64,000 bases of DNA from Rubrobacter indicoceani (GTDB lineage Bacteria > Actinomycetota > Rubrobacteria > Rubrobacterales > Rubrobacteraceae): positions 1,674,001-1,738,000 of the forward strand of contig NZ_CP031115.1 of assembly GCF_003568865.1 (NCBI RefSeq), written 5' to 3'. The notes beneath the pieces are model-generated. The model saw nothing but the letters and a program-made list of their open reading frames with translations. It searched no databases and had not been told where the DNA came from. Below are positions 40,589 to 57,976 of the stretch, one piece after another. Positions within the stretch are counted from its first letter, which is position 1. The number at the start of each line of letters is the position of its first letter. The translations under genes and the position numbers were made by a program.

Positions 40589-41848
40589 ATGGAAGATACT
40601 GTTGCTTTTCCGAACGAATCTCAACCGGCAGGGAGTGATGGTCGAGGATTGAGAAAAACAGCCCCGGAGCCCGACCTCCTGACAGCGACGCTTACAGGGT
40701 CGGCCAGAGATTTCGAGCGCCTGGAAGCCGAGTGGAACGACCTCTACCGCCACTCAGAGAACGCCACCCCCTTTCAGTCCTGGGGCTGGCTTTTCTCCTG
40801 GTGGCAAACCTACGCCCTGGACCCCTCGAGAAAGCTCGCCCTTCTAAGCCTCAGGGAGAGGTCTTCGGGGCTTCTGCTCGGGGTCTTCCCGATGATGATC
40901 AAACGCAGCCTCGGCGGGGTCGGGGTCCTCTCTCTCATAGGCGACGGGGTGACGGACTACCTCGACGTTGTGGTTCGCTCGGGGTGGGAGCGGGAGGTTT
41001 TCGAGGCCGGAGCGCGCGCCGTGCAGCGCATCCCCGGGTGGACCGTCGGGGATTTCCGGCAGCTCAGACCGGAGGCCTCGGTCTTCGGGGCGCTCGAGAA
41101 GCTGGACCGGAGACCGGAGCGCCTGAGAGAAGAGGGTTACCCGAGGATAGTAGCCCCCGACTGGGAAGCTGCGGTCAGAGGGGCGGGCAAGAACCTGAGG
41201 AGCATGGCTCGTCGTTCGGTGAAGCGGCTTGCGGCGGACGGGGTGGAGCGCGTCTGCGTTCCACCCGATACCCCGCCGGGTCAGATAGCGGACGCGGCCC
41301 GGAGGTTCGTCGCCCTGCACCGGGAATACTGGCGCGACCGGAATATCTCGCCCGAACACCTCACCGGGCGGTTTGCGAACCACATAGTCCTGTCCGCCGG
41401 GCGAATGGTCCCCGAAGGCGGGATGGAGATCCGGGAATTCCGCCTGAAAGGCGAGGTTATAGCCTCGCAGGTCATCATGGTCGGCGACGGCTACGCCGGA
41501 CAGATGCTCTCCGGGGCCGGGGCCGAAGCGGCGAAACGCTACCAGTTGAGCTCGCTCTTTATCTACGACGGCTTCAAGGTCTCGGAGAGGGTCGGGGCCG
41601 CCGGCTTTGACCTGCTGCGCGGCGAAGAGGCCTACAAGCTGCGCTGGAACCCGGAGGTCGTATCCGGAACGCGCGCTGTTTTCGGGCGCAACGACATGCT
41701 TCGACGGGGGTACCTGGCCTCCGTAAAGGCCTACGCCGCGCTCCGGGAGCAGGCCCACGCCGGGGACGCCTCACCCGGGGTCAAGCGGCTCTTCGCCGCC
41801 TACACAGACCTGCGCTCCCGGTTCGCCCGCCTGAGAAACCGGGGGTGA
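40589..41848 (+). CDS. BioF2/FemAB-like acyltransferase
   Basis: 419-residue protein with a two-lobed GNAT-related fold (acetyltransferase_6, formerly BioF2-like). The WGWLFSWWQTYA opening, the basic KNLRSMARRSVKRL helix, and the GYAGQMLSGAGAEAAKRYQLSSLFIYDGF strand/helix with LLRGEEAYKLRWNPEV are common in exopolysaccharide and peptidoglycan clusters (CelD/FemAB-like). The ATG at 40589 follows the divergent gap; the frame extends upstream inside the other gene. Probably adds an acyl or aminoacyl group to a sugar or lipid-linked unit. Confidence 0.8.
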   Translation: MEDTVAFPNESQPAGSDGRGLRKTAPEPDLLTATLTGSARDFERLEAEWNDLYRHSENATPFQSWGWLFSWWQTYALDPSRKLALLSLRERSSGLLLGVFPMMIKRSLGGVGVLSLIGDGVTDYLDVVVRSGWEREVFEAGARAVQRIPGWTVGDFRQLRPEASVFGALEKLDRRPERLREEGYPRIVAPDWEAAVRGAGKNLRSMARRSVKRLAADGVERVCVPPDTPPGQIADAARRFVALHREYWRDRNISPEHLTGRFANHIVLSAGRMVPEGGMEIREFRLKGEVIASQVIMVGDGYAGQMLSGAGAEAAKRYQLSSLFIYDGFKVSERVGAAGFDLLRGEEAYKLRWNPEVVSGTRAVFGRNDMLRRGYLASVKAYAALREQAHAGDASPGVKRLFAAYTDLRSRFARLRNRG

Positions 41849-41860
41849 AGCCTCCGGGCG

Positions 41861-42574
41861 TCAGGTAACTTCTCGGGATCTTTCGAAGAGCTGCTCGTCT
41901 CCGGGGAGCAGAGGACGCAGCGTCCGCTTCAGCCTCCGGTACGGGAAGTAGAAACGCATCTTCAACGCGAGCCGCCGGAGGCCGTCTCGTTCACGCACCG
42001 GGATCCTCGGGAGATCGAACCGCCCCCCTTCGAGAACGCGGGTCAGCGAGCATCCGTATGAGTATCCGGCCCTCTTTACCGCCGCGAGGCTTCGCTCGTC
42101 GAAGATACCGTAGGGATAGCAGAAGCCGCGTGCCCGGCGTCCGGTCACGGCCTCTATTCTTTCCCGGCTCGACCTCAGGCCCCGGATCAGCTTTTCGTCC
42201 GGGAGCCTTGTCAAAACGGCGTGGTGGGTGAAGTGCGAACCAACCTCCATCCCGGCTTCGGCGGAGGCCCGGACCTCATCGTTCCCCATGAGCTCGCGCT
42301 CTACGTGCGGGCTTACGTGATGTCTCCAGGTGTTTCTGGCGTCAAAGAGGTCCGGCATCACAAAGACCGTCGCCGTGAACCCGAACTCCTGCAGTGTCGG
42401 CACGGCCGCGTGCAGGAAGTCTCTGTAGCCGTCGTCGAAGGTCAGGCCGACAAGGCCGTCTCCCTCACCTCGACCCGTCGCCCGGAGCAACTCCTCCATC
42501 GAGACCCCGCGAAGGCCGCGCCCGGCGAGGTACGAGAGGTGTTCGCGCAGGCGCTCCGGGGTCGTGTTGAGCAC
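41861..42574 (-). CDS. NodB-type polysaccharide deacetylase (start uncertain)
   Basis: Carbohydrate esterase 4 domain: LTFDDGYRDF holds the catalytic base and metal Asp, GSHFTHHAVL the zinc His pair, and RARGFCYPYG the third motif. The coordinates use the first canonical start (GTG at 42574). The conserved opening VLVYHSIDCETDD lies upstream in the same open frame, but no ATG, GTG or TTG occurs before the stop. A CTG at 42634 with GGGAG eight bases upstream is the best candidate, giving 257 residues. It removes N-acetyl groups from a polysaccharide. No signal peptide is visible, unusual for this family. Confidence 0.8.
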   Translation of the reverse strand: MLNTTPERLREHLSYLAGRGLRGVSMEELLRATGRGEGDGLVGLTFDDGYRDFLHAAVPTLQEFGFTATVFVMPDLFDARNTWRHHVSPHVERELMGNDEVRASAEAGMEVGSHFTHHAVLTRLPDEKLIRGLRSSRERIEAVTGRRARGFCYPYGIFDERSLAAVKRAGYSYGCSLTRVLEGGRFDLPRIPVRERDGLRRLALKMRFYFPYRRLKRTLRPLLPGDEQLFERSREVT

Positions 42575-42837
42575 GTTCGGGTCGTCGGTTTCGCAGTCTA
42601 TGGAGTGGTAGACAAGGACGCGCGACCGCCTCAGAAGGGCGTCTCCCGCAGGCGGCCGAACGTCTTTGCTCGCCCGGGCCCTCTCAGCCTCTCCTGTATC
42701 GCAAAGATCCCTGATACGCCCCTCCGGTCCGCTGGACTACAACCGCCTCGTCCAATAATGTTACAGCGTAAACCGCCCCGGTGAGATACGGTGGCCGGGG
42801 CGCCCGAAAGCACCGACCGGAAAGAGCCGGAGAGAAC

Positions 42838-43599
42838 TTGACGCAGCCAGAGAGCCCCGGGGCCCGGGACGGCCCGGCAAGAGACATCCGAGATATCCGA
42901 GATATCCTCTTGGAGCGTGAGATCCGCGACCGCGAAGCCGGGGAGTACGACGCGATCAACTCCAACCTCTGATGGCAGGACGGCGCCTTCGACGCCATCG
43001 CCCTCGGTCGGCTCGGGGTTCGCGGGCCCCACACCGTTCTTGACGCCGGGTGCGGTACGGGCCGCAACCTGCCCGGCCTCGCCCGGACGGTTATCGGGGT
43101 GGACCACTCCGTAGAGAGCCTGAAGGTCGCCCGCGCGCGCCTCCCCCGAGCTGAGCGGCAAGACCTCTCTTCTGCGGGCCGACCTGCGCGAGCTGCCGGT
43201 TGAGTCCGAAAGCGTGGACCGCCTCCTCTGCGCCGGGGTGATACAGCACATAGCCGGCCGGACAAACCGGGAGCGGGTCGCCGGTGAGTTCCACCGGGTC
43301 CTGAAACCCGGCGGCTCGGCGGTTGTTTTCGGGTACTGCTGGGGACGGTCCATCCGGCGTGACAAGGAGGGCTACTTCCCGAACGGTGGAGCCTACCGTT
43401 TCGCCTTCACGAGGAGGGAGTTCGCCTCGATGCTCAAGCGCGGGGGCTTCGGGAACCTCACCCTCGGCGGCGCGGTCCTTCTCCCCCGCCTCGGCACCCT
43501 TCTCGACCTCGACGTCGGGCGGCCCGGCTCGCCTTCACGAAGCCGGGGCTTCTGTTCGGCAACTACTGGGTCGCACACGCCGTAAAACCTCTCCGCTGA
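42838..43599 (+). pseudogene. Decayed SAM methyltransferase gene
   Basis: A TTG start with GGAGAG opens a class I methyltransferase frame (MTQPESPGARDGPA...). It is broken by TGA at 42970-42972. Past that stop, TVLDAGCGTGRNLPGL (motif I) follows in the same frame. The frame shifts near 43150-43165 into LLRADLRELPVESESVD and FHRVLKPGGSAVVF, then again near 43515-43535 into LAFTKPGLLFGNYWVAHAV, ending at 43599. One stop and two frameshifts leave motifs recognisable, so decay is recent. An assembly or sequencing fault is the alternative. Confidence 0.82.
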
Positions 43600-43675
43600 C
43601 AAACCGGACCCCGAAGCCGGAACAAAACCCCTCGGACACCCGGCTTTCCGGACCCTTCACCTGAAAGAAAGCCGA

Positions 43676-43702
43676 CCCGGGCAGGAAACTTCCCCGCCCG
43701 GG
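43676..43702 (+). repeat. GC hairpin before DUF4832-type gene
   Basis: CCCGGGC (43676-43682) pairs perfectly with GCCCGGG (43696-43702). No T-run follows on either strand, so it is a weak terminator candidate only, for the pseudogene transcript. Confidence 0.35.
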
Positions 43703-43783
43703 CTAAAGCTCGGTCCGCCGGAGGCCGATAAGCAGGGTCAGGTCAAGCGTAAGAAAGACAGTTACTCCGGGGGTTTCGGAATC

Positions 43784-45511
43784 TTGGTGAAAAGCTTAAC
43801 AGAGGTTGCACGGGGAGGCATGTCGAGAAAGAGCCTGCTGAAGGGTTCGGCGAAGGCTCTGGCGGCCGGGGCCGTTGCAAGCGTTCTCCCGACGACCCTT
43901 TTCGCCAGCAGAGGCGAGGCCCAGACAACCGGCGGCCTGCAGAAGACCTTCCGACCGACGAGGAGCATCTTCCCGAACCCGGAGCGGGGATGGCTCGTCG
44001 GCATAGACCCGCTCCAGAACGACTACCGCGACGGCGACGGTCGGCTTCTCTACCGGGGGAACACCACCATGCAGCAGGTTCCGCCGCCGGGCTTCGAGAA
44101 GTACGCCCACAACGAAGCCAAGCTCCGCGAGCACCGCTCCCGGGGCGTAACGCTTATCCGCAAGTACTATCTTCTCTACGACTACCGCAGCAGCTACATC
44201 CCGGCCTCGTACCTCGCCGACATAGTAAAAGACCTTGAGCTTGTAAGGAAATGCGGCCTCAAGCTTATCCCGCGCTTTGTCTACGTGTGGAACGAGAGCT
44301 ACGAACCGGGGGCAAACCAGGACGCTTCCGTTACCTGGATCACCCGTCACCTGGAGCAGTTGCGCCCGATACTGAACGAGCACGCAGACGTGATCAGCTT
44401 CCTCGAGACGGGCCTCGTGGGCTGGTACGGAGAGTGGCACAACTCAACGAACGAGAACGTCGGCGGCCAGTGGACGGACCCCGCGGTCGGCGCAACCTAC
44501 GGTCAGGCGCTGAACCAGAACTCCATGAGCATCATCAACAAGGCCCTCGAAGTGCTGCCGACCAAGCGGATGATGGTCCTTCGCCTCGTGCATCACGTCG
44601 CCCAGCTTCAGCAGGACCGGTACGGTGGAACCCTCAGGGAGACCGAGGCCTACGGCGGCTCCGCAAAGGCCCGGATCGGGCTGGAGGACTCCTCCGTGCT
44701 CTACAACCAGACCCACCGGGGCGGCTACTGGCCGCCCGACACCGAGTACGGCAAAAGGGCAAAGGAATCCATGCGCCTGTTTCAGGAGACCGTAACAAGC
44801 AACGTCGTCATGACCGGCGAGCCCTCCGGCGATGACGGCTCCGGCTACGTTTTCCGGACCGACCCGATAGCCGAGTTCGAGCGCATGCACTGGGACTCCA
44901 TGAACAACTGCTGGTACGAGGCCGAAAGGGACGGGGTCTACGCCCACTGGCGGCGCACGGGCGCCTACAACGAGATCGGCAACCGCCTCGGATACCGCTT
45001 CGCCCTTCTCGGGGCGAGCGTTACAGGGAAGGCCGCTCGCGGCGGGCCCATCACCCTCACCTTCGACGTCGAGAACTCCGGGTTTTCGAGCCCCTACAAC
45101 CCTCGCCCGGTCGAGGTCGTCCTCAGAAGAACCACCGACGGCAGGGAGTTCCGGCTCCGGCAGAACAACGCCGACCCCCGACGCTGGAAAAGCGGTGCGA
45201 GCCGACGGGTCGTTCTCTCGGGGCGGGTTCCGAAGGGGATGACGAACGCCACCTACAAAGTGCTGCTCAACTTCCCGGACCCGGAGCCGAAGCTCTACGG
45301 AAGGTCGGAGTACTCCATTCGCCTCGCAAACGAAGGGGTCTGGGAGAACGCCACCGGGTTCAACGACCTTGGCCTGCTCGTCAGGGTCTCCGGCTCGGTG
45401 AAGACCACCCGCAGGACCGCCTCCCAAATTCCGGCCTTCGAGGCCGTCGCCCGACAGCCCCGCTCGGACGTGCCGCAGGAGATCACCCTCGCACCGGACG
45501 CGCAGCTGTGA
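43784..45511 (+). CDS. Exported DUF4874/DUF4832-type protein
   Basis: 575-residue protein. The N-terminus has SRKSLLKGSAKALAAGAVASV, a twin-arginine-like signal with RK in place of RR. The body matches the DUF4874/DUF4832 arrangement: TFRPTRSIFPNPERGW opening, GVTLIRKYYLLYDYR, the TIM-barrel-like GLVGWYGEWHNST with acidic residues, then a beta-sandwich tail. These proteins look like glycoside hydrolases but have no assigned activity. The start may be GTG 43784 or ATG 43820; the GGGGAGG before the ATG is only one base away. It probably trims or binds the exopolysaccharide outside the cell. Confidence 0.75.
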   Translation: MVKSLTEVARGGMSRKSLLKGSAKALAAGAVASVLPTTLFASRGEAQTTGGLQKTFRPTRSIFPNPERGWLVGIDPLQNDYRDGDGRLLYRGNTTMQQVPPPGFEKYAHNEAKLREHRSRGVTLIRKYYLLYDYRSSYIPASYLADIVKDLELVRKCGLKLIPRFVYVWNESYEPGANQDASVTWITRHLEQLRPILNEHADVISFLETGLVGWYGEWHNSTNENVGGQWTDPAVGATYGQALNQNSMSIINKALEVLPTKRMMVLRLVHHVAQLQQDRYGGTLRETEAYGGSAKARIGLEDSSVLYNQTHRGGYWPPDTEYGKRAKESMRLFQETVTSNVVMTGEPSGDDGSGYVFRTDPIAEFERMHWDSMNNCWYEAERDGVYAHWRRTGAYNEIGNRLGYRFALLGASVTGKAARGGPITLTFDVENSGFSSPYNPRPVEVVLRRTTDGREFRLRQNNADPRRWKSGASRRVVLSGRVPKGMTNATYKVLLNFPDPEPKLYGRSEYSIRLANEGVWENATGFNDLGLLVRVSGSVKTTRRTASQIPAFEAVARQPRSDVPQEITLAPDAQL

Positions 45512-45629
45512 CCCGCGCCGCCCTCCGGCCCCGGGTTGTAGCCGGAGACACAGAAGAGCGCCCGCCTTGCCCGACGGACCGCCCGTCCCGAGCGCTGCAT
45601 CATATACTCCTTGTCGAGTAGGAATCTCG

Positions 45630-46937
45630 GTGCGGGGGAGCGAAGCCGTCGGCGTGAGCATGATAGAGACAAAGGAACCGGGGTCCACAGGCGGGATCTC
45701 CTCTCTGCACCGGAACTTCTCGTGGGTGCTCGCCGGTAACCTTGTCTACGCGGCTTCGCAGTGGGGGATGCTTACCGCGCTCGCCAAGCTCGGCAGCCCC
45801 GAGATGGTCGGGCAGTTCGGGCTCGGGCTTGCGATAACGGCCCCTATCATCCTTTTCTCGAACCTGAACCTGCTCGCCGCCCAGTCCACCGACGCCCGCC
45901 GGGAGTATGCCTTCGGGGACTACGCCGCGCTCCGCACAGCGACGACGGCCCTCGCGCTTGTCCTGATCTTCCTGCTCGTCGCCTTCGGGGGCTACGCCCG
46001 CGAGACGGCCCTTGTCGTGCTGCTTATCGGGGTCTCGAAGGCCGTGGAGTCGTTCAGCGATTTGACCTACGGCCTCTACATGCAGCGCGAGCGCATGGAC
46101 TACATAGCGCGCTCGATGGTCCTGCGCGGCCTGCTCTCGCTCGTCGCCCTGAGCGCCGGGGTCTACCTGACGGGCGGTGTCGCCTGGGGCGTGGTCGGGA
46201 TGTGCGTCGTGTGGGCCGCGGTCTTTCTTCTGCACGACGCGCCGAACGTCCGGTCCGTCCTGGAGCGTGGCGAGAGCGCGCGCGTCGTCTTCCGGCCCGC
46301 CGTGCTCGCGAGCCTCGCGTGGCTCGCCCTGCCGCTCGGCCTCGTCATGACGCTCGTCTCCCTCTACACAAACGTGCCGAGGTACTTTATCCAGGGCTAC
46401 TTCGGGGAGCGGGAGGTCGGCTTCTTCACGGCGATGTCCTACATAATCGTCGCCGGTTCGACCTTCGTGAACGCGCTCGGACAGGCCGCAAGCCCCCGTC
46501 TTGCAGGCTACTACGCCGACGGTGATACCCCCGCCTACCGAAGCCTGCTCGTAAAGGCGGTCGGTCTCGGGGCGGGCATCGGGGTCGCCGGGATACTCGC
46601 GGCGGTCGTGGCCGGGCCGGAGATTCTGACGGTTCTCTACTCGGCGGAGTACGCGGCGGAGTCCGGGGTCTTTACGCTTCTTATGGTGGCGGCGGCGTTC
46701 GGCTACGTTGCGTCCTTTCTCGGCTACGGTATGACGGCCGCCCGGTACTTTAAAACCCAGATACCGCTTTTCGGAGCAACGGTCGCCTCGGTGGTAGTCT
46801 CCTGCTGGCTGCTCGTCCCGGCGTTCGGGCTGGCAGGCGCAGCCTTTTCGCTTATCATCGGTGGGGTCGTGCAGACGGCGGGGGGGCTCCTTGCGGTATC
46901 TCACGCCGTGAACTCGTTGCAGAAAAGAGAGGTTTAG
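45630..46937 (+). CDS. Wzx-type polysaccharide flippase
   Basis: 435-residue MOP-superfamily exporter with 12-14 hydrophobic helices. The first helix segment is SWVLAGNLVYAASQWGMLT, and SLYTNVPRYFIQGYFGEREVGFFTAMSYI is the typical mid-protein segment of flippases. It turns lipid-linked repeat units to the outer face. The GTG at 45630 with AGGA seven bases upstream is preferred; GTG 45654 and ATG 45660 are alternatives. Confidence 0.88.
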   Translation: MRGSEAVGVSMIETKEPGSTGGISSLHRNFSWVLAGNLVYAASQWGMLTALAKLGSPEMVGQFGLGLAITAPIILFSNLNLLAAQSTDARREYAFGDYAALRTATTALALVLIFLLVAFGGYARETALVVLLIGVSKAVESFSDLTYGLYMQRERMDYIARSMVLRGLLSLVALSAGVYLTGGVAWGVVGMCVVWAAVFLLHDAPNVRSVLERGESARVVFRPAVLASLAWLALPLGLVMTLVSLYTNVPRYFIQGYFGEREVGFFTAMSYIIVAGSTFVNALGQAASPRLAGYYADGDTPAYRSLLVKAVGLGAGIGVAGILAAVVAGPEILTVLYSAEYAAESGVFTLLMVAAAFGYVASFLGYGMTAARYFKTQIPLFGATVASVVVSCWLLVPAFGLAGAAFSLIIGGVVQTAGGLLAVSHAVNSLQKREV

Positions 46938-46940
46938 GTC

Positions 46941-48092
46941 TTGAGCGTCCCGGACAGGCCCGTCAGGGTGTTGCAGATAGTGGAGGGGATGTACCGCGCC
47001 GGGCTCGAGACGTGGCTGATGCACGTTCTCAGGCACATAGACCGCGATCGTTTCAGGATGGACTTCCTTGTCCAGGACAGAAACGAGGGGCACTACGACG
47101 CCGAGATACGCTCGCTGGGTTCGCAGGTTATCCACTGCAAGACCCGCAAGAACCCGCTGCTTCACACCCTTGAGCTGCGAGACATCCTTCGCCGTCACGG
47201 CCCCTACGACGTCGTCCACTCGCACTTCCACTACTACAACGGCTACGCGCTCGGGGTCGCAAAGGCCCAGAACGTCCCGATCCGGGTCTCCCACAGCCAC
47301 AGCGATATCTCGCGCCTCGATGAAGCCGCCGGGCTCCCGAGAAAGGCTTTTGTAAAGGCGATGCGGCACCTGCTCTACCGGAACGCGACCGCCGGGCTCG
47401 CGGTGAGCCGGGGTGCGGCGTACTCGCTCTTCGGACCGGGCTGGGAGCGCGACCCGCGCTGGCGCATCCTTTTCCCGAGCATCGTCCCGGAGCGGTTTCA
47501 CTCGGCGGTGGATCGTCCGGCGGTCCGCCGGGAACTCGGGATACCGGAAGGGGCCTTCGTCGTCGGTCACGTCGGACGCTTCAGCGAACCGAAAAACCAC
47601 GGCTACCTGCTGGAGATAGCCGCCGCCCTTTTCAGGCGGGAGCCGAACGCAAGGCTAGTGCTGGTCGGCGAGGGAGATCTCAGGGCCGAGGTGGAGGCGA
47701 AGATCCGCAGGCTCGGCATCGTGGACAAAGTCATCCTGACCGGGAGTGTCCCGGATCCGGAGCGGCTGATGCGAAGCGTGATGGACGTGTTTATGCTGCC
47801 GTCGCTCTACGAGGGGCTTCCGCTGGTCGGGATAGAGGCTCAGGCGGCGGGGCTGCCGTTTTTTATCTCGGATGTGGTCTCGGAGGACGTGGACGCGGTT
47901 CCGGCCCTGATCCACCGCCTCTCCATCTCCGAGCCGCCCGAGACCTGGGCGCGGGCGATCCTTGCGTCGCGGGAGAAGGCGAACCCCGTCGGTCGGGCCG
48001 AAGCCCTGCGCCTGATGGAGGAGAGCGCGTTCAACATCGAACATACCGTAAGACAACTGGAGGCGGTCTATGCCAAACCCCCGGTCGTCTGA
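46941..48092 (+). CDS. GT4-family glycosyltransferase
   Basis: 383-residue GT-B enzyme. The N-terminal domain begins VRVLQIVEGMYRAGLETWLM and has VVHSHFHYYNGY; the donor-binding half has VGHVGRFSEPKNH, LVGEGDLR and the SLYEGLPLVGIEAQAAGLP acid motif (E-x7-E). TTG start three bases after the flippase. Adds one sugar to the repeat unit; overlaps the polymerase gene by 23 bp. Confidence 0.9.
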   Translation: MSVPDRPVRVLQIVEGMYRAGLETWLMHVLRHIDRDRFRMDFLVQDRNEGHYDAEIRSLGSQVIHCKTRKNPLLHTLELRDILRRHGPYDVVHSHFHYYNGYALGVAKAQNVPIRVSHSHSDISRLDEAAGLPRKAFVKAMRHLLYRNATAGLAVSRGAAYSLFGPGWERDPRWRILFPSIVPERFHSAVDRPAVRRELGIPEGAFVVGHVGRFSEPKNHGYLLEIAAALFRREPNARLVLVGEGDLRAEVEAKIRRLGIVDKVILTGSVPDPERLMRSVMDVFMLPSLYEGLPLVGIEAQAAGLPFFISDVVSEDVDAVPALIHRLSISEPPETWARAILASREKANPVGRAEALRLMEESAFNIEHTVRQLEAVYAKPPVV

Positions 48093-49713
48093 CACCGTCC
48101 CCTCCCCCCCGGGCAGGCTTTCGCCGGGGGAGATCCGCTTCGGCGCAGGCCACGCGCCGGACGCGCAGGCCTCGCGCCAGGGCGTGAAGTGGTCCGTTGC
48201 CCTGATCGGCAGCGGCCTTGTCTTTATCGCGCTCGTGCTTTTCGCCGTTGCATACAACACCTTCGCCTTCGGTGTAACCGCAGCGGAATCGATCAGACCG
48301 ATGTGCTTTGTCCTTACGGCCTGCTGCCTTTGGGCGGTCGTCTCCTGGCGGATGGTCGCCGGAAGCGTCTTCAACCCCTACGGGATGTTCCTGATCGCCG
48401 CCTCGCTGTTCAACGGCGGTCAGGCCTTTCTGTATATGTTCGCGGTGGACACGTCGGCCCTCTCTTCGAGCGTCGCCGTCTCGGTGATGCAGACGTTCCC
48501 GCCCCAGACGGTGCTCTCTACGGTTTTTCTGGTCGCGCTCGGCATAACGGCTTTTCACATCGGCGGGCTTCTGAGCGTGCCGGTGCTCGAGCGTCGCGGC
48601 ACCCGGGTTTCACCCGAAAACAGCGGGGGGATCGCGCAGTCGGGCGCCGAGTACCGGCGAACGGCGTCGGCCCTGAGGATGGTCGGGTGGGGCTTGCTGC
48701 TCGTCTCGGCCGGCCCGGTCGTCGTGCTGCTGCAGCAGAGCATCTCGGTGGTGGCGAGTTCGGGGTACCTCGGGATCTACCAGCAGGAGTTCAGCAGTTC
48801 GCTCGCAATACTCGCTGCGGCGGTGATACCGGCGGTGGTCTTTCTGCTTGCCGGGAGCAAGGGGCATCCGTATATAATCGCCCTTGCGACGGGCGTGGTG
48901 CTGGTGTACTCCTTTGCGCAGTTCTTTCTCGGCAATCGCGGCGGCGCGGCGATGTTTCTTGTTGCCTTTGCGTGGACGTTTCACCGCTGCATCCGGCCGC
49001 TGCCGAAGAGCCTTCTGCTTGTCGCGGGCCTTATCATGCTGCTGGTGGTCTTTCCGGTGATCCGGGTCTTTCGGGATCAGGGCCCGGCGTCCTCTCTCTC
49101 GGTCGAATCCCTGACGGAGACTTTTACGTCTATAGACAACCCGGTGGTCTCCATCCTTCAGGAAACTGGCTTTTCGATGGTTACGGTCTCACACACGCTG
49201 GAGCTTGTGCCGGGCTACCGGGACTTCGACTTCGGGGTGAGTTATTTCTACGCGCTGCTCGGGGTCGTCCCGAGCCTTTTCTGGCCCTCGCACCCGACGG
49301 AGGTTCACGGGACGCTGAGTTCATGGCTCGCCCGGGCGGTCGAGCCAGGCCTCGCCTCGACCTACGACAACTGGGGCCTTGGATATTCCTTTATCGCCGA
49401 GGCGTACATGAACTTCGGCTGGTTTGGAACGCCGTTCGTGCTGGCGCTCACGGGCTTTCTGCTCGGCTGGTTTGTTCTCTCCGCCGAACGCTCGGGGGAT
49501 CTGGCGAAGATAGCGATGGTCGGTACCTTTACGGGCTTCTTTCTTATCTACGCCCGGGCCGAGGCGAACGACGTCATCCGCTCGCTGGCCTGGTATTCGC
49601 TTTTTCCGTACCTGGCCGTGCTCTCTGTAAAGCTGTGGACGGCGAGGGCCCGGGGAAAGACGGTCGGGGATAACACCCCGCCCGCCCGCCCGCCGCGGGG
49701 AGATACAAAGTGA
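48070..49713 (+). CDS. Wzy-type polysaccharide polymerase
   Basis: 547-residue membrane protein with about 12-13 hydrophobic helices. The long loop GVVPSLFWPSHPTEVHGTLSSWLARAV lies between late helices, and YSFIAEAYMNFGWFG matches the oligosaccharide repeat-unit polymerase group. It would join repeat units outside the membrane. The ATG at 48070 follows GGAGG by six bases and overlaps the upstream glycosyltransferase; its end overlaps the next by four bases. Confidence 0.8.
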   Translation: MPNPRSSDTVPSPPGRLSPGEIRFGAGHAPDAQASRQGVKWSVALIGSGLVFIALVLFAVAYNTFAFGVTAAESIRPMCFVLTACCLWAVVSWRMVAGSVFNPYGMFLIAASLFNGGQAFLYMFAVDTSALSSSVAVSVMQTFPPQTVLSTVFLVALGITAFHIGGLLSVPVLERRGTRVSPENSGGIAQSGAEYRRTASALRMVGWGLLLVSAGPVVVLLQQSISVVASSGYLGIYQQEFSSSLAILAAAVIPAVVFLLAGSKGHPYIIALATGVVLVYSFAQFFLGNRGGAAMFLVAFAWTFHRCIRPLPKSLLLVAGLIMLLVVFPVIRVFRDQGPASSLSVESLTETFTSIDNPVVSILQETGFSMVTVSHTLELVPGYRDFDFGVSYFYALLGVVPSLFWPSHPTEVHGTLSSWLARAVEPGLASTYDNWGLGYSFIAEAYMNFGWFGTPFVLALTGFLLGWFVLSAERSGDLAKIAMVGTFTGFFLIYARAEANDVIRSLAWYSLFPYLAVLSVKLWTARARGKTVGDNTPPARPPRGDTK

Positions 49714-50837
49714 GGCTCTGGCACGTCGGGGCCCGGCCCTCGCCCGAGGCGGTCGACGGGGTCGGGATGGTGGTGTGGCAGGTCGCCCGCGAGCAGGCCC
49801 TCCTCGGCCACGAGGTCGCCCTGATCCTCGACGAGGAGCCCGACGAGGCGGCGCGGGCCTTTGCCTCGGGGTGCGGCCTCGACCTGATAACGCTCCCGCC
49901 GCGCCTCCTGCGCTACAGCCCGGCGAAGGTCCGGGGCCTGCTGAAAACGGCGAGGCCGGATCTGGTCCACATGCACAAGACCTTTGTCCCGCAGCAGCTC
50001 TCGCTGACGAGGCTCCTTGTAAAGCAGGGCATCCCGTACGTCATCACGCCTCACGGCGGCGTAAACCACCGCCGGAGCCGCAACCTCAAGAAAACGGCCT
50101 ACACGTGGCTTATAGAGCGCGCCCGCTTTGCCCGGGCCGCCGCTATAACAACGGTCGCGCCGCTCGAAGAGGTCGCCGTCCGGCGGGTCGTGCCGGACTT
50201 CGCCCGGACCGTCCGCTGGGTCCCGAACCCCGTCGACACCCGCCTGCTCGACGGCCACGAGTGGCACGGCGACCTCGCCGCAAAGACGATGATGTACCTC
50301 GGTCGGTTTCACGTGATCAACAAAGGCATAGACACGCTGGTCGAGATCTCCCGCAGCCTTCCGCAGACGACCCTCGACCTCTACGGCACGCCGCACCCTC
50401 AGACGGCGAAGCTGCTCGCCGGGATAAAGTCAACCCTTCCGGCCAACGTGCGCTTCAACGGTCCCGTCTCTGGCCCGGAGAAGGCGCGGTTGCTGGCCGC
50501 ATCGAGCCTCTACATCCAGACCTCGCGCTGGGAGGGCTTCTCAATCTCCGTTGCCGAGGCGATGTACGTCGGGGTCCCGTGCGTGGTCTGCGACACGCCG
50601 CATCCGTCGCAGATGGTCCACCACGCCGAAGTGATGAAAGAACGCGGCCTCGGGCTGGTCCTTCCGACCGCCCCGGGACCCGCCGCCGAAATGCTCGCCG
50701 CCAGCCTCGACGAGCCCTCGGAGATGATCCGCTCTGCGGAGCGGGCGCGGGACTTCGCCCGGAGAAATTTCTCTCCGAAGGCAGCCGCACTCGGCTACCT
50801 CGAAGTCTACGAAGAGTCTTTCGCGAGCTCCCTGTAG
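49710..50837 (+). CDS. GT4-family glycosyltransferase
   Basis: 375-residue GT-B enzyme. The N-terminal half contains DGVGMVVWQVAREQALLGHEV and LVHMHKTFVPQQ; the donor half has MMYLGRFHVINKGIDTL and SRWEGFSISVAEAMYVGVPCVV with the E-x7-E motif. GTG start with GGGGAG, overlapping the polymerase stop by four bases. The last 31 bp overlap the convergent glycosyltransferase gene. Confidence 0.9.
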   Translation: MRLWHVGARPSPEAVDGVGMVVWQVAREQALLGHEVALILDEEPDEAARAFASGCGLDLITLPPRLLRYSPAKVRGLLKTARPDLVHMHKTFVPQQLSLTRLLVKQGIPYVITPHGGVNHRRSRNLKKTAYTWLIERARFARAAAITTVAPLEEVAVRRVVPDFARTVRWVPNPVDTRLLDGHEWHGDLAAKTMMYLGRFHVINKGIDTLVEISRSLPQTTLDLYGTPHPQTAKLLAGIKSTLPANVRFNGPVSGPEKARLLAASSLYIQTSRWEGFSISVAEAMYVGVPCVVCDTPHPSQMVHHAEVMKERGLGLVLPTAPGPAAEMLAASLDEPSEMIRSAERARDFARRNFSPKAAALGYLEVYEESFASSL

Positions 50838-52006
50838 ACGGCCTCCGTGCGTCTGGTGGCGAGCCGCTGGTCAAAGGTCTCTCGGGCGTAGGCGTGGTTT
50901 CGCTCCCCGATCCGCCGCAGCTCTTCTCCCTCGCCCCCCGGCCCGAGCATCGCGGCCATCGCCCCCGAGAGCGCGCCCGCGTCGCCGGTCGGCACGACGC
51001 GGTTGCCCTCTGCCCCCTCCACGACCCCGGCCCCGAAGACCCGCGTAGTAACGACGGGGAGCCCGGCGGCCATCGCCTCCATCGTGCTGTACGAGACCCC
51101 GGCCTCGTAGTGGCTCGACACCACGAAGACGTCCAGCCCGCCGAGAAACTCACCGGGGTCCGAGACCCAGCCGGGGAACTCCACGTCCCCCTCGAGGCCG
51201 AGCTCCCCGACGCGCCGCAGACAGCCCGAAAGCAATTCTCCGTCGCCCGCGACGCGCAGGCGCACCGGACGGAGCCCGGCGGGCCGCGACCTCTTGAGCC
51301 GGTAGAACGCCTCGAGAAGGTTCTCCGGGGCCTTCTGCTCGCTGAAGCGCATCGTTGAGCCGAAGGTTATGGGGCCTCCGCCTCCCCCGTTCTTCGTTTC
51401 TTCGGGGTCTCGCTCTTCAAAGCGTCGGAAGTCTTTATCGCGAAGCGCGTTCGGGACGACCCGGATTCTCTTTTTCGGGACGGCTCGGATCTTTCTGAAG
51501 AACTCGGCTTCGTCTTCCGAGACGGCGATTATCCTGCCGGTGGCACCGTACCCGAGCACGCGCTCCACAGCCGTATAGGCAGCGGCTTTCTTACGGGAGA
51601 TGCCGGGCGAGGAGACGATCATGCTGTGCGGGGTGTAGACCGCCGGGATCCGGGAGACGAGCGCCGCCGCCCTTCCGAGCGCGCCCCCTTTGGAGCTGTG
51701 TCCGTGCACCACGTCGAACGGTCCCCTGTCCCGGATGACGCGGAGGATCTTCCGCAGGCTCTTCAGGTCGGAGAGCGGGGAGACCTCCCGTCCCATATTA
51801 ACCTTTACAAACCGGGCCGAATCACCACCGACAAACTCCCGAAACGCCGGGTCGAGCCGCTCGGGAGCATAAACCACTACAACCTCGTGACGGAGTTCGG
51901 AGAGCCCTTCGGAGAGCGTCCTGACATGCCGCCCGACCCCGGCTCCGGTCGCCTCTATAACCTGAAGCAGCCTCAGACGCTTCTCTCCGGTGCCGCCGTC
52001 GGTCAT
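50807..52006 (-). CDS. GT4-family glycosyltransferase
   Basis: 399-residue GT-B enzyme. LRLLQVIEATGAGVGRHVRTL opens the acceptor domain, VVHGHSSKGGALGR and VYTPHSMI follow, and the donor half has SSHYEAGVSYSTMEAMAAGLPVV. The ATG at 52006 has GGAGG 11 bases upstream and fits better than GTG 52036. It is third in the minus-strand operon after the Wzz-PAS and BY-kinase genes. Confidence 0.9.
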   Translation of the reverse strand: MTDGGTGEKRLRLLQVIEATGAGVGRHVRTLSEGLSELRHEVVVVYAPERLDPAFREFVGGDSARFVKVNMGREVSPLSDLKSLRKILRVIRDRGPFDVVHGHSSKGGALGRAAALVSRIPAVYTPHSMIVSSPGISRKKAAAYTAVERVLGYGATGRIIAVSEDEAEFFRKIRAVPKKRIRVVPNALRDKDFRRFEERDPEETKNGGGGGPITFGSTMRFSEQKAPENLLEAFYRLKRSRPAGLRPVRLRVAGDGELLSGCLRRVGELGLEGDVEFPGWVSDPGEFLGGLDVFVVSSHYEAGVSYSTMEAMAAGLPVVTTRVFGAGVVEGAEGNRVVPTGDAGALSGAMAAMLGPGGEGEELRRIGERNHAYARETFDQRLATRRTEAVYRELAKDSS

Positions 52007-52013
52007 GCCGGCA

Positions 52014-52745
52014 TCAGCCTCCGGAGCGGGCTTCACCGTAGCTGTAGGAATATCCGCCGTAGGTTCCGTCGCGGGAGGGCTTGACGTTGTTCATCACCGT
52101 CCCGAGAACCTTTGCCCCGACCGATTCCAGCGTTCGAATGGAACGGCGCGCGGAGAGCTTTCGCGTACTCTGAGCGTCGAGTACCAGCACGACCCCGTCG
52201 GCCTGAACGGCGATGATCGCCGGGTCGGAGACAAGCTGGACCGGGGGGGCGTCTATTATCACGTAGTCAGCCGCCTCCCTTAGCTCCTCGACGAGCGCGG
52301 TGAAACGCTCCGAACCGAGAAGCTCCGTCGGGTTCGGCGGTATCGAACCCGAGGTCAGCACCCTGAGGTTCTCAAGCGGTGTATGCCAGAGGTCGTCAAC
52401 GCTCTCCGTACCGACGAGGGCGTCCACCAGTCCCCGGGTGTTCCTGAGATCGAAGACACCGTGCACAACGGGCTTTCTCAGGTCACAGTCTATAAGAACG
52501 ACGCTTTTCCCGGCCTGCGACAGGGAGACGGCGAGGTTCGCGCAGGTTGTGCTCTTCCCCTCTCGCTGGCCGGGGCTCGTTACCACGACAACCTTCGGCG
52601 GGTTGTCCACTATCGAGTAGAGCAGGCTTGTCCTGAGCGTCCGGTACGCCTCGGCGGCCTGTCCCCCGGGATCCGAGATGGAGACCAGACGTTCGGGCAG
52701 ATCGCTTACGTTCTTGCTTTTCGTCCGGGTCTGACCCTTCTGCAT
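52014..52745 (-). CDS. BY-kinase (CpsD/CapB-type tyrosine kinase)
   Basis: 243-residue cytoplasmic bacterial tyrosine kinase without membrane helices. Walker A is SPGQREGKSTT (57-67), Walker A' VVLIDCDLRKP (82-92), Walker B VIIDAPP, and the C-terminus has a tyrosine cluster TYGGYSYSYG for autophosphorylation. In Gram-positive systems this kinase is activated by the cytoplasmic tail of a separate Wzz-type protein; here that is the PAS-bearing protein 71 bp upstream. The phosphatase at 37605 is the likely opponent. Controls chain length and export. Confidence 0.92.
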   Translation of the reverse strand: MQKGQTRTKSKNVSDLPERLVSISDPGGQAAEAYRTLRTSLLYSIVDNPPKVVVVTSPGQREGKSTTCANLAVSLSQAGKSVVLIDCDLRKPVVHGVFDLRNTRGLVDALVGTESVDDLWHTPLENLRVLTSGSIPPNPTELLGSERFTALVEELREAADYVIIDAPPVQLVSDPAIIAVQADGVVLVLDAQSTRKLSARRSIRTLESVGAKVLGTVMNNVKPSRDGTYGGYSYSYGEARSGG

Positions 52746-52816
52746 GCGCCCCTCTACCTTCTGGTTCTCGCGTGTGTTTCAGGCTCCGTCGCCATCCGTC
52801 GCCGGGAGACCCCGGC

Positions 52817-54877
52817 CTAGATATCCTCCGAGTTGAGGATCGCCCCGAGCTTCTCCTGTATCTGCAGGAGACGCCTCTCTACCTCTCGCTTCTCCGCCTC
52901 GACGGTCTCGAGCCGCTCCTCGTTCTGCCGGACCAGCTCTTCGCACCGCCCGAGTTCCCCTTCGAGCCGCGTCCGTTCCTCCTCTAAGCGTCTGCCTTCG
53001 AACTCGGCGGCCTCCAGCCTCCGCTCAAACTCCTGTCTTTGCTCCTCGGCCGCGGCCCGGTTCTCCTCCTCGGCCTGCTCGGAGCGCAGACGGGTCTCCG
53101 CGAGGCTCTCTTCGAGCTCTTGCAGCCTTGACCTGGTGGCTTCGCTCTCGGCCTCGCTGCTGCGCAGGCTCTCCTCGGTGTGGCGCAGGGTGCTCTCTTT
53201 CTGCTGCAGGGCGGCCTGGAGTTCTTCGAGCGTCGCGCCCTCCTCGGCGCGCCGGTACTCGATAAGCTTCCGGTCGGTGAGGTCTTCGAGCATCATCATC
53301 ACCTCGCGCACCCCGCCCCGCTCGTCGGCAACGGGCCTGATAAAGGCTCGCAGCCAGCGTTCTCCGGGGCCGTTGCCGTCTTCGGGAACATCCAGCCGGA
53401 GCGGCGGGGTGACGGTCTCCGCGCCGCTGTCTATGCTCTGGCGAAAGTAATGGTCGAGGCCGACGTCCCTCATCCGCTCGTTTTCAAGAACGCTCTCGCC
53501 GTTGGTCTCGCCCGGCTCGTACCAGAGGTCGTGCCAGAACGCCTGCCACGATTCGTCCTCGGAGAGCGAGTAACCGTCCGGGGTAAAGAAGCTGACGGAG
53601 AGCGGTGAATGTCCCATGACCGTTCTCAGGCGCTCTTCGGAGATCCTCCTCGCCTCACCGGAGATGTTCGCCGCCTCCTCGGCCTGTTTGACCCGGGTGA
53701 TGTCCTTTACCATCGCCATCGCCCCGCGCCCCGCCGCGTTCCGCAGGCTCAAGACCGTTACCTCGACCCAGGAGATCTGACCATCATCCCCGATGAGCCT
53801 CTTCTCCAGGGAGTAGCTGGGCCTCTCCCCGGAGACCAGAGATCCGTGAAGCCCCCTGTGCCTCTCGGCGTCGTCGGGATGGGAGAACAGCCCGGAGAAT
53901 TCCTCTCCTACGAGCCCTTCCGCTCCTTTGCGCCCGAGCATCCCGAGCAGCGTCGCGTCGGCCTCCTCGACCCGCCCCTCCTCGTCGAGCAGCAACGTCC
54001 CCACCGGCCACGTTACCCCGCCCTCGCCAGCCGGCGGAAGAAACCGGCCCCCGGCGGGACCTTCGGACAATCCCGGTTCCGAGCCGTCGGTGGAGGATGA
54101 GCCTTCCCCGGCCCCCGCGATCCGGCGTCTGTTTTGGTGGGGTTGCCTGAAGGCTTCCCGGATCTTCTGTGAGCCCTCACCGGAGGCGGGCTCGAAAACG
54201 GGGATCACGCCGAAAACCGGGACGCCGAGCATGCCCTCGGCCTCCTCGGGGGAGCTCCAGCGGTCGTCGAGCAGTTCGAGCAGAAAGGCGATGCCGGCCC
54301 CGAGCATCAGGCCGAGGATCAGCGAAAGGGCGGCGTTTCTGAAGAAGTCCGGCACGACCGGGTCCACGGGGAGGTCGGCCGGCTCGTAGAGTACGGCCGT
54401 GATCGAGGTCGAGCCTTCGCTGACCTGTGAGATCTGCTCGGAGAAAGCCTCCCCGGTGGCGTTGGCTATCCGCTGAGCCTCCTGCGGGTCCGGGCTGCGG
54501 TAGATGATCTCGATAAACTGCGTCGAAGAGACCTGCTCGACGGTGAGGTTCTCAAAGAACTCGTCGGTGGTCAGATCGAGGTTGAGTTCGTCTATGACGG
54601 CCTGGGCGACGGGGCGACTGTCGGCGGCGACGGCCATCGTCTGGGTCAGCTGCTGAAGCCCGACCGCCTCGTTCGGGGATTCGGTTATGCCCTGGTCCTG
54701 CCCCACGAGCATCCGAACGGAAGACTCGTACTGTGGGGTCTGCAGCATGCTGAGCATCATGGCAAGCCCGACCGTAACGATAACGGCGAGAGCGATAAAC
54801 CAGAACCGCCGAAGGAAAACCGACGTAACGCTCTTTAAAGAGAGTATGAAATCGTCTCCGCCGGACATCCCGTTCAA
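52817..54877 (-). CDS. Wzz-type chain-length protein fused to PAS domains and coiled coil
   Basis: 686-residue fusion. Residues 1-225 are a Wzz/CapA-type copolymerase: helix 1 at about 25-47, an external alpha/beta region, the proline-rich YEPADLPVDPVVP (164-176), helix 2 at about 180-202, then DDRWSSPEEAEGMLGVPVFG typical of the cytoplasmic end. After a low-complexity linker (230-287) comes a PAS-like domain (290-397, ending GAMAMVKDITRVKQAE), a second PAS-like domain (413-540, ending REVMMMLEDLTDRKLIE), and a long coiled coil (540-680). No kinase, GGDEF or HAMP domain follows. It leads the BY-kinase operon, so it probably passes a cytoplasmic signal to chain-length control. Confidence 0.9.
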   Translation of the reverse strand: MNGMSGGDDFILSLKSVTSVFLRRFWFIALAVIVTVGLAMMLSMLQTPQYESSVRMLVGQDQGITESPNEAVGLQQLTQTMAVAADSRPVAQAVIDELNLDLTTDEFFENLTVEQVSSTQFIEIIYRSPDPQEAQRIANATGEAFSEQISQVSEGSTSITAVLYEPADLPVDPVVPDFFRNAALSLILGLMLGAGIAFLLELLDDRWSSPEEAEGMLGVPVFGVIPVFEPASGEGSQKIREAFRQPHQNRRRIAGAGEGSSSTDGSEPGLSEGPAGGRFLPPAGEGGVTWPVGTLLLDEEGRVEEADATLLGMLGRKGAEGLVGEEFSGLFSHPDDAERHRGLHGSLVSGERPSYSLEKRLIGDDGQISWVEVTVLSLRNAAGRGAMAMVKDITRVKQAEEAANISGEARRISEERLRTVMGHSPLSVSFFTPDGYSLSEDESWQAFWHDLWYEPGETNGESVLENERMRDVGLDHYFRQSIDSGAETVTPPLRLDVPEDGNGPGERWLRAFIRPVADERGGVREVMMMLEDLTDRKLIEYRRAEEGATLEELQAALQQKESTLRHTEESLRSSEAESEATRSRLQELEESLAETRLRSEQAEEENRAAAEEQRQEFERRLEAAEFEGRRLEEERTRLEGELGRCEELVRQNEERLETVEAEKREVERRLLQIQEKLGAILNSEDI

Positions 54878-55241
54878 TTACCGCACCTCACGTTCTCAAG
54901 CGACCCCATCCGGGTGTCGAACTCCGGTTATCCTGTTTCTTGCGCTTCGCCCCCGTTAATGTCTTATCGCACCATAAGGGGCGATGTGCCTATTATCGGT
55001 TAGAAGATCACGAAAGTGAAGGGCGCGTGAAACCGGAGCCTTTTTAAGGTTTGCTCGCTGACCGACGATAAGGATAACATATGCCCTGTAGCGTAAGGTT
55101 CTTTCGGCGCCTGGCCGCTCGTCCGGCAGGCGCAACCGGGGAGGCTGCTTCGGGGCGACCGCTGTTCGGACGCTCCGGTCACCGAACGCGGTGTGATGTG
55201 ACGGTTCTTCCCGACCGCGGGTCGGGGTGCTCTGAGGGGGT
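54878..55241. other. 364-bp divergent gap between Wzz-PAS and ligase genes
   Basis: No gene I can support. It contains a possible minus-strand promoter at 54992-55020 and a possible plus promoter TTGCTC-N16-GATAAC (55051-55078), followed by a GC-rich leader of about 150 nt with a 7-bp perfect stem GCGCCTG/CAGGCGC (55107-55133). A 60-codon frame at 55081 has an AAGGA-like site but poor codon use. Confidence 0.5.
54992..55020 (-). promoter_or_regulatory. Candidate promoter of Wzz-PAS operon
   Basis: On the minus strand TTCACT (55015-55020) and GATAAT (54992-54997) are 17 bp apart, about 115 bp before the ATG at 54877. Confidence 0.35.
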
Positions 55242-57236
55242 TTGCCTTTTTTGTACAAGCTGACGCGCTCCGGTTCCTTCAGGCGGAAGATCGCGGGCGT
55301 CGGCATGGTCTGCGTGGCCGGGATGAACGCCTGGCTCGGGTATTCGTTCGGCGGGTACTACATCGGAGACTGGGGGCTTTTCGCCTTTCTGGTAGTGGTG
55401 CTTTTCCTGGTTTCGGTCGGGCTCGGCTTTCTTGGGGGCATGCGCTCCCGGGTGGCGGTGGCGGCAACGACCCTGTTTCTGGGCTACACGGCGTGGACCT
55501 TTCTCTCCATCCTGTGGTCGGCGAATCGGGGCGACGCCTGGTACGGCTCCTCCTTGACGCTGGTTTATCTGATCGTCTTCTGGGTCGCCGCGACGCTCGC
55601 CGCCGTGGGTCTTTCCCGAAGGCTGGCCCTTGCCGCGCTCTCTATCGGCCCCGGCGTGGTCGCCCTGCTTACCGTCCCGATGCTTGCTTCGGGCGCTACG
55701 GAGAACGGCAACTTCTTTCTTGACGGTCGCCTTATGGGCCCGGCGGGATACTTCAACGCTCAGGCGGCGTTTCTACTGGTTTCGTTCTGGTCAGGGATCT
55801 ACGTCGCGGGGTCCCGGCGGGTCAACCCGCTTCTCAGGGGACTGTCCCTTTCAAGCACGGTCGTGTGCCTTGAAGTCGCCATCCTTACCCAGTCTCGCGG
55901 TACGGCGGTGGCTTTCGCCGCGTCTCTTTTAGTCTTTTTCCTTTTCTCCGGCAGGCGGCTCAGGGGGCTTCTTGCCTTTGCTCCGGTGGCGGGATGCGCG
56001 GTCTTTGCCTTCTCCGATCTGAACGAGGTCTACCTGCAGCTCCGGTTGTCGGAAACCGTTACGGGAGCGGGCCTCGATGCGATAGACCGGGCCGGAACCG
56101 TGATCCTGGCCTCGGCGGTGGCCGCCGCTCTGTATGGTCTTGCGTGGGGTTTTCTGGAGCGCTCCTGGCGTCCGACCGCGTCCCTCACGCAAGCCGCAGG
56201 GGTCGTCTGCCTCTCGGCGGTCGCGCTGTTCTCTGTTGCGCTCTTCTTTGTCGCCGTGGACCGGGTCGGCTCCCCGGTGGACTTTGTGCAGGAGAGGTGG
56301 GTCGCCTTCAAGGCAAACGACACCTCCGGGCAGGACGAGAGCCGCTACCTCAGCGCGAGCGGCTCCGGTCGCTACGTACTCTGGGAGGTTGCGTGGCGGG
56401 ACTTTACGGAGAACCCCGTCGCCGGGGTCGGCACCCACAACTACGAGTCAACCTACTACCAGTACCGGACCGGCGTCTCCGGCTGGGTCAGGCAGCCGCA
56501 CTCCCTCGGGCTGGAGGTTCTCTCGGAACGGGGGGTGATCGGCGGCCTCTTCTTTTTCGGTTTCCTGGCGACCTGCGTCGGTTCGGGCCTCCATAAAAGG
56601 TTCAGCCAGCTCAACCCCGAAGGCAAGGGGCAGGTCGGCGCGATGCTGGCGTGCCTGACCTACTGGTTTGTACATTCGAGCGCCGAGTGGTTCTGGCAGA
56701 TACCGGCGATCACCGTCCCGGCCATCGTTTACCTTGCGATGCTTGTCGTTCCCTGGTCGCGTCCGAGAAGCGAGGAGGACGTGTTCCGGCCGCTGGACCG
56801 TCCCTTGAGGCTTGCGGGGGTGGGCATATCCGCCCTGGCGCTTATCGCCATCTCGCCGCTGTTCGTGTCGAGCTACTACCAGCAGAAGGCCGGGGCGGAG
56901 AACAACCCGTGGGTCTCCCTCGGGTACCTGGAGCGGGCACAGACCTTTGATCCGTTGAACCCGGCGCTGGCCCGGGAGGAGGGTGATACGGCCTACAGCA
57001 TCGGTGATATTCCCCGGGCCTCCGAGTCGTACGCAAGGGCGGTGGCCCTGAACCCGGATCACTACGCCAACTACTCGGTGCTGGGTGGCTTCCACGAAAG
57101 GCTCGGAGACCCGGAACGGGCGCTGGAACTGTACCGCCGAGCCGAGGAGTTGAACCCACTGGACGAGGAGATCCGCCAGGCTGCCGAACGGGCTCGGGCC
57201 GAGGTGGAAGCCCGGCAGAACGTCTCGCTCCGGTAG
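55242..57236 (+). CDS. O-antigen-ligase-like membrane protein with TPRs
   Basis: 664-residue protein. Residues about 15-480 have 11-12 hydrophobic helices and the Wzy_C segment: AVAFAASLLVFFLF, then the external loop with GSGRYVLWEVAWRDFTENPVAGVGTHNYE and QPHSLGLEVLSERGVIG, the ligase motif. Residues about 545-655 are tetratricopeptide repeats (LNPDHYANYSVLGGFHERLG, LYRRAEELNPLDEEIRQ). It would attach or terminate the polysaccharide outside the membrane, with the TPRs as a docking part. TTG 55242, or TTG 55251 with better spacing from GGGGG, is the start. Confidence 0.85.
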   Translation: MPFLYKLTRSGSFRRKIAGVGMVCVAGMNAWLGYSFGGYYIGDWGLFAFLVVVLFLVSVGLGFLGGMRSRVAVAATTLFLGYTAWTFLSILWSANRGDAWYGSSLTLVYLIVFWVAATLAAVGLSRRLALAALSIGPGVVALLTVPMLASGATENGNFFLDGRLMGPAGYFNAQAAFLLVSFWSGIYVAGSRRVNPLLRGLSLSSTVVCLEVAILTQSRGTAVAFAASLLVFFLFSGRRLRGLLAFAPVAGCAVFAFSDLNEVYLQLRLSETVTGAGLDAIDRAGTVILASAVAAALYGLAWGFLERSWRPTASLTQAAGVVCLSAVALFSVALFFVAVDRVGSPVDFVQERWVAFKANDTSGQDESRYLSASGSGRYVLWEVAWRDFTENPVAGVGTHNYESTYYQYRTGVSGWVRQPHSLGLEVLSERGVIGGLFFFGFLATCVGSGLHKRFSQLNPEGKGQVGAMLACLTYWFVHSSAEWFWQIPAITVPAIVYLAMLVVPWSRPRSEEDVFRPLDRPLRLAGVGISALALIAISPLFVSSYYQQKAGAENNPWVSLGYLERAQTFDPLNPALAREEGDTAYSIGDIPRASESYARAVALNPDHYANYSVLGGFHERLGDPERALELYRRAEELNPLDEEIRQAAERARAEVEARQNVSLR

Positions 57237-57340: not shown

Positions 57341-57976
57341 TTAGATCTTCCCTCGCACCAGCCGGGCGGCTTCGGTGCGGTTGCTCACCCTGAGCGTCTT
57401 GAAGGCCGAGCGGAGGTGTTGTTTGACGGTTGATTCCGAAAGGTAGAGTCTGGCCCCTATCTGGGCGTTTGTCATCCCCTCGGAGACGAGGCGGAGGATC
57501 TCGAGCTGCCTCGGGGTGAGGCTTTCGAGGTCCTCCGTCTCGTCCTCGGCGACGATGTCGCGGATAAGGTCCCTCGGCACCACCACCTCTCCCTTCGAGG
57601 CGATGGAGATAGCCCGGAGGATCTGCGAAGCCCCCATCTCACCGTGAACGAAACCTCGCGCTCCGGCCCGGAGCGCGGCCCGAACCACCGGGAGGCTGCT
57701 GGAGAGCCCGAAGACTACGACCGGAACCCCGGTGCTCAGGCTTCGCACGTACCGGACCCGCTCCCCGGTCTCCCCCGCGCTTGTGGCGCAGAGCAGGATA
57801 CAGCAGAGGTCGTCATCCTCGGGGATCGCCTCCGTTGTCTTTACGGAGGCGATCTCCGACAGAACCCCGGAAAGCCCCCGGGTGAGAACCGGATAGGGAC
57901 ACAAAAGCCACACGGAGCCGATGTACTCCCGCTCCTTTGGACCGCCCACGTGCCTGATCTCTCCCTGGTGCAACAC
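57341..57976 (-). CDS. LuxR-type regulator with degenerate receiver domain
   Basis: 211-residue NarL/LuxR-family protein. The C-terminal HTH (about 149-211) has LTPRQLEILRLVSEGMTNAQIGARLYLSE... and STVKQHLRSAFKTL. Residues 20-135 have receiver-like alternation, but the acidic pair after beta-1 is Cys-Pro (LLCPYP), the beta-3 phospho-acceptor region is LLCATSAGE without Asp, and the Lys after beta-5 is His (GFVHGEM). So phosphorylation control is unlikely; it may bind a ligand or partner. Divergent from the LPxTG gene, with a palindrome in between. Confidence 0.88.
   Translation of the reverse strand: MLHQGEIRHVGGPKEREYIGSVWLLCPYPVLTRGLSGVLSEIASVKTTEAIPEDDDLCCILLCATSAGETGERVRYVRSLSTGVPVVVFGLSSSLPVVRAALRAGARGFVHGEMGASQILRAISIASKGEVVVPRDLIRDIVAEDETEDLESLTPRQLEILRLVSEGMTNAQIGARLYLSESTVKQHLRSAFKTLRVSNRTEAARLVRGKI

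Follow-up and report, generated by a model that had tools for sequence, protein, structure and literature searches.

A Wzz-type polysaccharide co-polymerase with a tandem PAS extension beside a separate BY-kinase gene in Rubrobacter

In relatives of the system considered here, the cytoplasmic tail of the polysaccharide co-polymerase activates the BY-kinase, and competition for the tail site controls the kinase (PMC3795738, PMC11194573). The C-terminal segment of Staphylococcus aureus CapA1 forms an αA–βA motif, the penultimate Phe of which helps bind the kinase nucleotide (PMC3795738). Wzc-type co-polymerases cycle between octameric and dissociated states with phosphorylation and dephosphorylation of their tyrosine tails (PMC11986026, PMC12004946). 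The cues that control BY-kinases have been described as largely unexplored (PMC5035731).

The window analyzed here is a 64,000-nucleotide stretch of Rubrobacter indicoceani DNA (bases 1674001–1738000 of contig C1 of a 3.08-Mb genome). It encodes a Wzz/CpsC-type protein of the PCP-2b polysaccharide co-polymerase group with the order (i) Wzz, (ii) linker, (iii) PAS1, (iv) PAS2, and (v) a long helix. The fusion gene occupies positions 52817–54877 on the (−) strand and encodes 686 residues from a TTG start preceded by GAGG, as defined by the ORF list and by Pfam and NCBIfam domain matches.

Domain layout of the fusion protein

Two hydrophobic helices, evident from hydropathy and the predicted model, form the TM pair of the Wzz portion: TM helix 1 comprises residues 16–48 (54734–54832, (−); model helix 14–45) and TM helix 2 comprises residues 178–206 (54260–54346, (−); model helix 178–206). 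They flank an extracytoplasmic domain (residues 49–177; 54347–54733, (−)). Pfam Wzz matches residues 13–98 above its cut-off (E 8.6e-9), and the predicted Wzz part has fold matches to KpsE and Wzc. The kinase-activating tail follows TM helix 2 (residues 207–229; 54191–54259, (−)) and is assigned from the family alignment, the end of TIGR01006, and the CapA1 precedent (PMC3795738). Residues 27–229 align to positions 24–225 of the 226 in TIGR01006, the CpsC-like chain-length family, and the short segment DDRWSSPEEAEGMLGVPVFGVIPVF after TM helix 2 marks the end of that model in the fusion protein. By the family alignment and the end of TIGR01006, Phe228 occupies the place of the CapA1 penultimate Phe. 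Judged by its sequence, the αA–βA tail with its activating Phe is intact, and the fusion is therefore predicted still to activate the kinase.

Because TIGR01006 ends near residue 229, the usual C-terminus would lie there; the fusion runs on for 457 residues, an extension past the normal kinase-activating end that a reading of the sequence alone had already proposed. With 458 residues beyond Phe228, the chain does not end at its tail, unlike standard PCP-2b proteins, so that the fusion is best regarded as a variant PCP-2b. It is not a PCP-2a (Wzc) protein, since no kinase domain is present in the chain and the kinase is a separate gene.

The extension begins with a variable linker (residues 230–284; 54026–54190, (−)) that has very low confidence in the full-length model. 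PAS1 (residues 285–400; 53678–54025, (−)) is recognized clearly, with PAS_4 matching residues 291–397 (E 4.1e-14), PAS_9 and PAS likewise above their Pfam cut-offs, and the NCBIfam sensory_box model at E 1.3e-16. PAS2 (residues 405–540; 53258–53665, (−)) is divergent and by itself barely exceeds the Pfam PAS_4 cut-off (23.3 bits versus 23.1; the PAS2 of its congener scores 24.3). As a profile together with nine relatives, it matches solved PAS domains, namely 3luq (2.2e-5), Rv1364c, and DosP. The PAS2 subtype occurs in Rubrobacteraceae signaling proteins at 31–43% identity, from which the fusion copy has drifted; for example, a conserved Asn preceding a Trp is gone. Both PAS-like domains of the sequence-only reading are thus borne out, the second through its cut-off score and profile matches.

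The remainder is a long charged helix (residues 541–686; 52820–53257, (−)), delimited from the model and the pairwise alignment with the congener. Residues 550–682 form a single confident helix in the predicted model, and heptad periodicity across the whole stretch is modest, with 129 of 2000 shuffles reaching the observed value. Of the roughly 140-residue coiled coil proposed earlier, the helix holds, and the coiled coil is likely rather than proven owing to this modest periodicity. The C-terminal tip, (V/I)QEKLGAI(L/M), is common to the fusion protein and its congener homolog, and the helix lengths differ. As had also been proposed, no output domain follows: HisKA, GGDEF, EAL, DNA-binding, and other output domains are absent from the fusion protein in Pfam and NCBIfam searches.

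The PAS sequences show no signature of a ligand or cofactor. No LOV cysteine motif was seen in the PAS domains of the fusion. Alignment with DosP places the His of the PAS1 “HPDD” motif (in SHPDDAER) in the region of the DosP heme histidine, a heme ligand. However, this motif occurs widely among PAS domains, and the distal Met/Arg neighboring the region in DosP are not kept, which leaves heme binding by PAS1 unsupported. Nothing among the cofactor residues inspected in the PAS sequence pointed to light, redox, or oxygen sensing; the earlier suggestion of a redox or light signal thus finds no support, and that of a small-molecule signal is likewise conjectural.

Structure prediction gave no confident model of the PAS region or of the complex. 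The alignment behind the full-length model contained no PAS relatives, those from the genome searches being left out of it, which makes the PAS region of the model unreliable, and the viral contigs scanned provided almost nothing usable as PAS relatives for a deeper structure alignment. A single-sequence PAS model is poor, yet the folds that it matches best are those of PAS domains (E about 0.03).

The BY-kinase and the polysaccharide cluster

The fusion lies directly upstream of a BY-kinase gene, as first read from the sequence; the two are on the same strand, 71 bases apart. The kinase is of the CapB/CpsD type (243 aa; 52014–52745, (−)), identified by TIGR01007 (E 2.4e-59), by comparison with CapA1–CapB structures, and by its motifs: EX2RX2R (EAYRTLR), Walker A (GKST), A′ (VLIDCDLR), B (VIIDAP), and four C-terminal Tyr residues. 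The predicted gene is complete and carries all expected motifs.

The cluster spans at least 37566–57236. It includes genes for a Wzb-like LMW tyrosine phosphatase (37566–38081, (+); Pfam LMWPc, E 8.1e-28), an initiating sugar-phosphate transferase (38078–39601, (−); Pfam Bac_transf, E 6.3e-63), a Wzx-type flippase (45567–46937, (+); Pfam Polysacc_synt), a Wzy-type polymerase (48070–49713, (+); Pfam O-ag_pol_Wzy, E 7.3e-45), a Pfam-identified glycosyltransferase (50807–52036, (−); overlapped by the 3′ terminus of the kinase gene), and a TPR-containing Wzy_C/ligase protein, encoded divergently to the fusion (55242–57236, (+); Pfam Wzy_C, E 8.2e-16). An acetyltransferase, a polysaccharide deacetylase, and glycosyltransferases are also encoded, and a DUF4874/DUF4832 protein gene that is syntenic in the congener lies inside the cluster (43784–45511, (+)). 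By annotation, the Wzx/Wzy cluster is complete and includes the tyrosine phosphatase gene, which is also syntenic in the congener and encodes the likely counterpart of the BY-kinase. Adjoining the ligase gene, a LuxR-type regulator gene (57341–57976, (−)) gives a very weak receiver-domain match and is syntenic in the congener at 61% identity; its product could be a transcriptional regulator of the cluster.

Conservation, distribution, and origin

In the one other genome of the genus examined, a syntenic gene (605-codon reading frame) encodes a 600-aa homolog with the same domain order, within a cluster of the same gene order (protein identity about 47–77%). Neither fusion contains stops or frameshifts, and this uninterrupted syntenic counterpart rules out a wrong gene call as well as the misassembly against which the sequence-only reading had cautioned.

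Between the two proteins, the extracytoplasmic domain is 83% identical, TM helix 2 plus tail 67%, the linker 41%, PAS1 58%, and PAS2 67%. Pairwise dN/dS values (Nei–Gojobori) are 0.20 for TM helix 1 plus the extracytoplasmic domain, 0.15 for TM helix 2 plus tail, 0.65 for the linker, 0.37 for PAS1, 0.26 for PAS2, and 0.33 for the helix, ratios that are rough because dS is 0.9 to 1.8 and only two sequences are compared. Their order is clear: the PAS domains are constrained relative to a relaxed linker. This purifying selection argues for a function of the module. A chance gene fusion with a decaying PAS part, to which the divergence of PAS2 and the differing helix lengths might point, is very improbable given selection on both PAS domains, the conserved tip, and the intact reading frames.

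The fusion is absent from 37 other Rubrobacteraceae genomes. Among the 60 Wzz matches listed in 39 genomes of the family, the two fusions are the longest frames (686 and 605 codons). In most relatives the chain ends with the tail, and a kinase gene of its own comes next; in two (L008 and L030), the Wzz chain continues into the kinase itself. The tail junction is thus a site where Rubrobacteraceae add domains, a kinase in some and PAS–PAS–helix in the fusion genus. For the Wzz part of the fusion, the best relatives lie in Rubrobacteraceae, among them Rubrobacter taiwanensis.

Several other Wzz loci came to light. L059 (G029:C55:20000-22600; Wzz match 1573–2103, (−)) has the extracytoplasmic Wzz domain and lacks the kinase-activating tail; its different C-terminal extension resembles, by eye, a small winged-helix-type domain. 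A second, divergent Wzz protein without PAS domains (26% identity) is encoded at G000:C1:2430318-2430968 (−) (L034/L047), followed by a kinase-like gene with 35% identity to the kinase of the window. A Rubrobacteraceae-like Wzz and kinase pair (L039, JAUJON010000173.1) resides in a bin labeled as a Thermosynechococcaceae cyanobacterium and is possibly a contaminating contig.

The wider survey covered Actinomycetota, a sample of Cyanobacteria, and plasmids. A profile of the junction and PAS1, which outside Rubrobacteraceae might overlook fusions whose Wzz tail or linker differs strongly, found full-length matches in only the two fusion genomes among 396 Actinomycetota genomes and none in the 339 genomes of the Cyanobacteria sample. 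The fusion was likewise not found in 72,556 plasmids (best coverage 39%). A genome contig scan gave no match with a protein query and unfused relatives only with an alignment query. One long match (G337) was rejected as a further fusion because it contains PAS domains without Wzz. Literature searches for PAS domains in connection with chain-length regulators, co-polymerases, or BY-kinases, with most subscription journals outside their reach, returned no description of this architecture, in agreement with the novelty first suggested for it.

The nearest tandem relative of the PAS pair (L022) consists of PAS–PAS and then the beginning of a GGDEF domain, with 38% identity over 251 residues (residues 292–542 of the fusion). 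Further PAS relatives serve as input domains in histidine kinases (L024, L027) and in GGDEF-EAL proteins (L026, L028), and a GGDEF-EAL protein with related PAS domains (L033) is encoded in the fusion’s own genome. The simplest history would be that, in an ancestral member of the genus lineage, an input module of a signaling protein became attached after the Wzz tail, the helix replacing the enzymatic output.

Proposed function and comparison with known systems

The PAS–PAS–helix module, probably derived from a Rubrobacteraceae signaling protein, hangs behind the intact tail on a loose linker. We propose that the PAS pair and helix associate between adjacent subunits beneath the kinase ring; this pairing may favor or oppose octamer formation and so set phosphorylation of the kinase tyrosine tail. 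Were a cytoplasmic signal to bind the PAS domains, the octamer balance would shift; the cluster phosphatase would reset the kinase, and polymer length or export could be altered without new transcription. The linker, about 55 residues long, variable, and modeled with very low confidence, makes rigid signal transfer between PAS and tail unlikely; tethering or dimerization would fit better than a conformational relay through the linker and is favored.

Whether the PAS module tunes the BY-kinase at all appears evenly balanced. The intact tail, adjacent co-directional kinase, cluster phosphatase, synteny in the congener, constrained PAS domains, and sensor-input relatives speak for tuning; the lack of a cofactor signature, the long variable linker, the drifted PAS2, and the restriction to two carrier genomes speak against it. 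The fuller proposal is tentative and less likely than not: as the first such built-in sensor, a ligand-bound PAS pair would directly control octamer assembly and autophosphorylation of the kinase, and thereby polymer length and export without transcription.

Somewhat unlikely is a constitutive scaffold in which the PAS pair and helix only dimerize or localize the co-polymerase complex and nothing is sensed. The loose linker and the lack of a ligand signature suit such a role, and the conserved tip of the long helix could dock a partner; however, domain-averaged selection is purifying on both PAS cores, beyond their surfaces, and the nearest PAS relatives are sensor input modules. Information might instead flow in reverse, with the PAS–helix informing a cytoplasmic partner of the state of the polymer machinery rather than controlling the kinase. 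The syntenic LuxR-type neighbor, with its weak receiver match, would be a candidate recipient, and the conserved C-terminal tip is free, but no direct link between the fusion and this gene was found and such neighbors are common, which renders this route improbable.

If tuning of the kinase by the PAS module is correct, an internal signal would set sugar-polymer export at the protein level. The fusion, the adjacent kinase, and the cluster phosphatase make up a testable three-part system for BY-kinase cues, for which the PAS-free Wzz/kinase pairs of Rubrobacteraceae are ready controls.

The architecture is real, conserved, and unusual, and constitutes a variant of the split co-polymerase/BY-kinase system. 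Like CapA/CapB of S. aureus and other CpsC/CpsD-type pairs, it has a two-TM Wzz protein, an αA–βA tail with a near-terminal Phe, and an adjacent separate kinase (PMC3795738); in those systems the activator ends at the tail, whereas the fusion continues into the PAS pair and the long helix. Wzc-type PCP-2a proteins, such as L008 of Rubrobacteraceae, likewise carry a domain fused right behind the tail, and a phosphorylation-driven octamer cycle is expected for both, but the fused part there is the kinase. Within Rubrobacteraceae, the PAS–PAS–GGDEF(–EAL) proteins and the histidine kinases with PAS domains (L022, L024, L026–L028, L033) share the same PAS subtypes, L022 in the same tandem order, yet end in an enzymatic output, in contrast to the fusion, which has none and is anchored to a co-polymerase. 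Bacillus subtilis PtkA, with TkmA, SalA, and DefA, is also a split BY-kinase governed by the occupant of the tail site, DefA linking it to oxidative stress (PMC5035731, PMC11194573). The inputs of PtkA are separate proteins, whereas the Rubrobacter fusion has a sensor-type module built into the activator itself.
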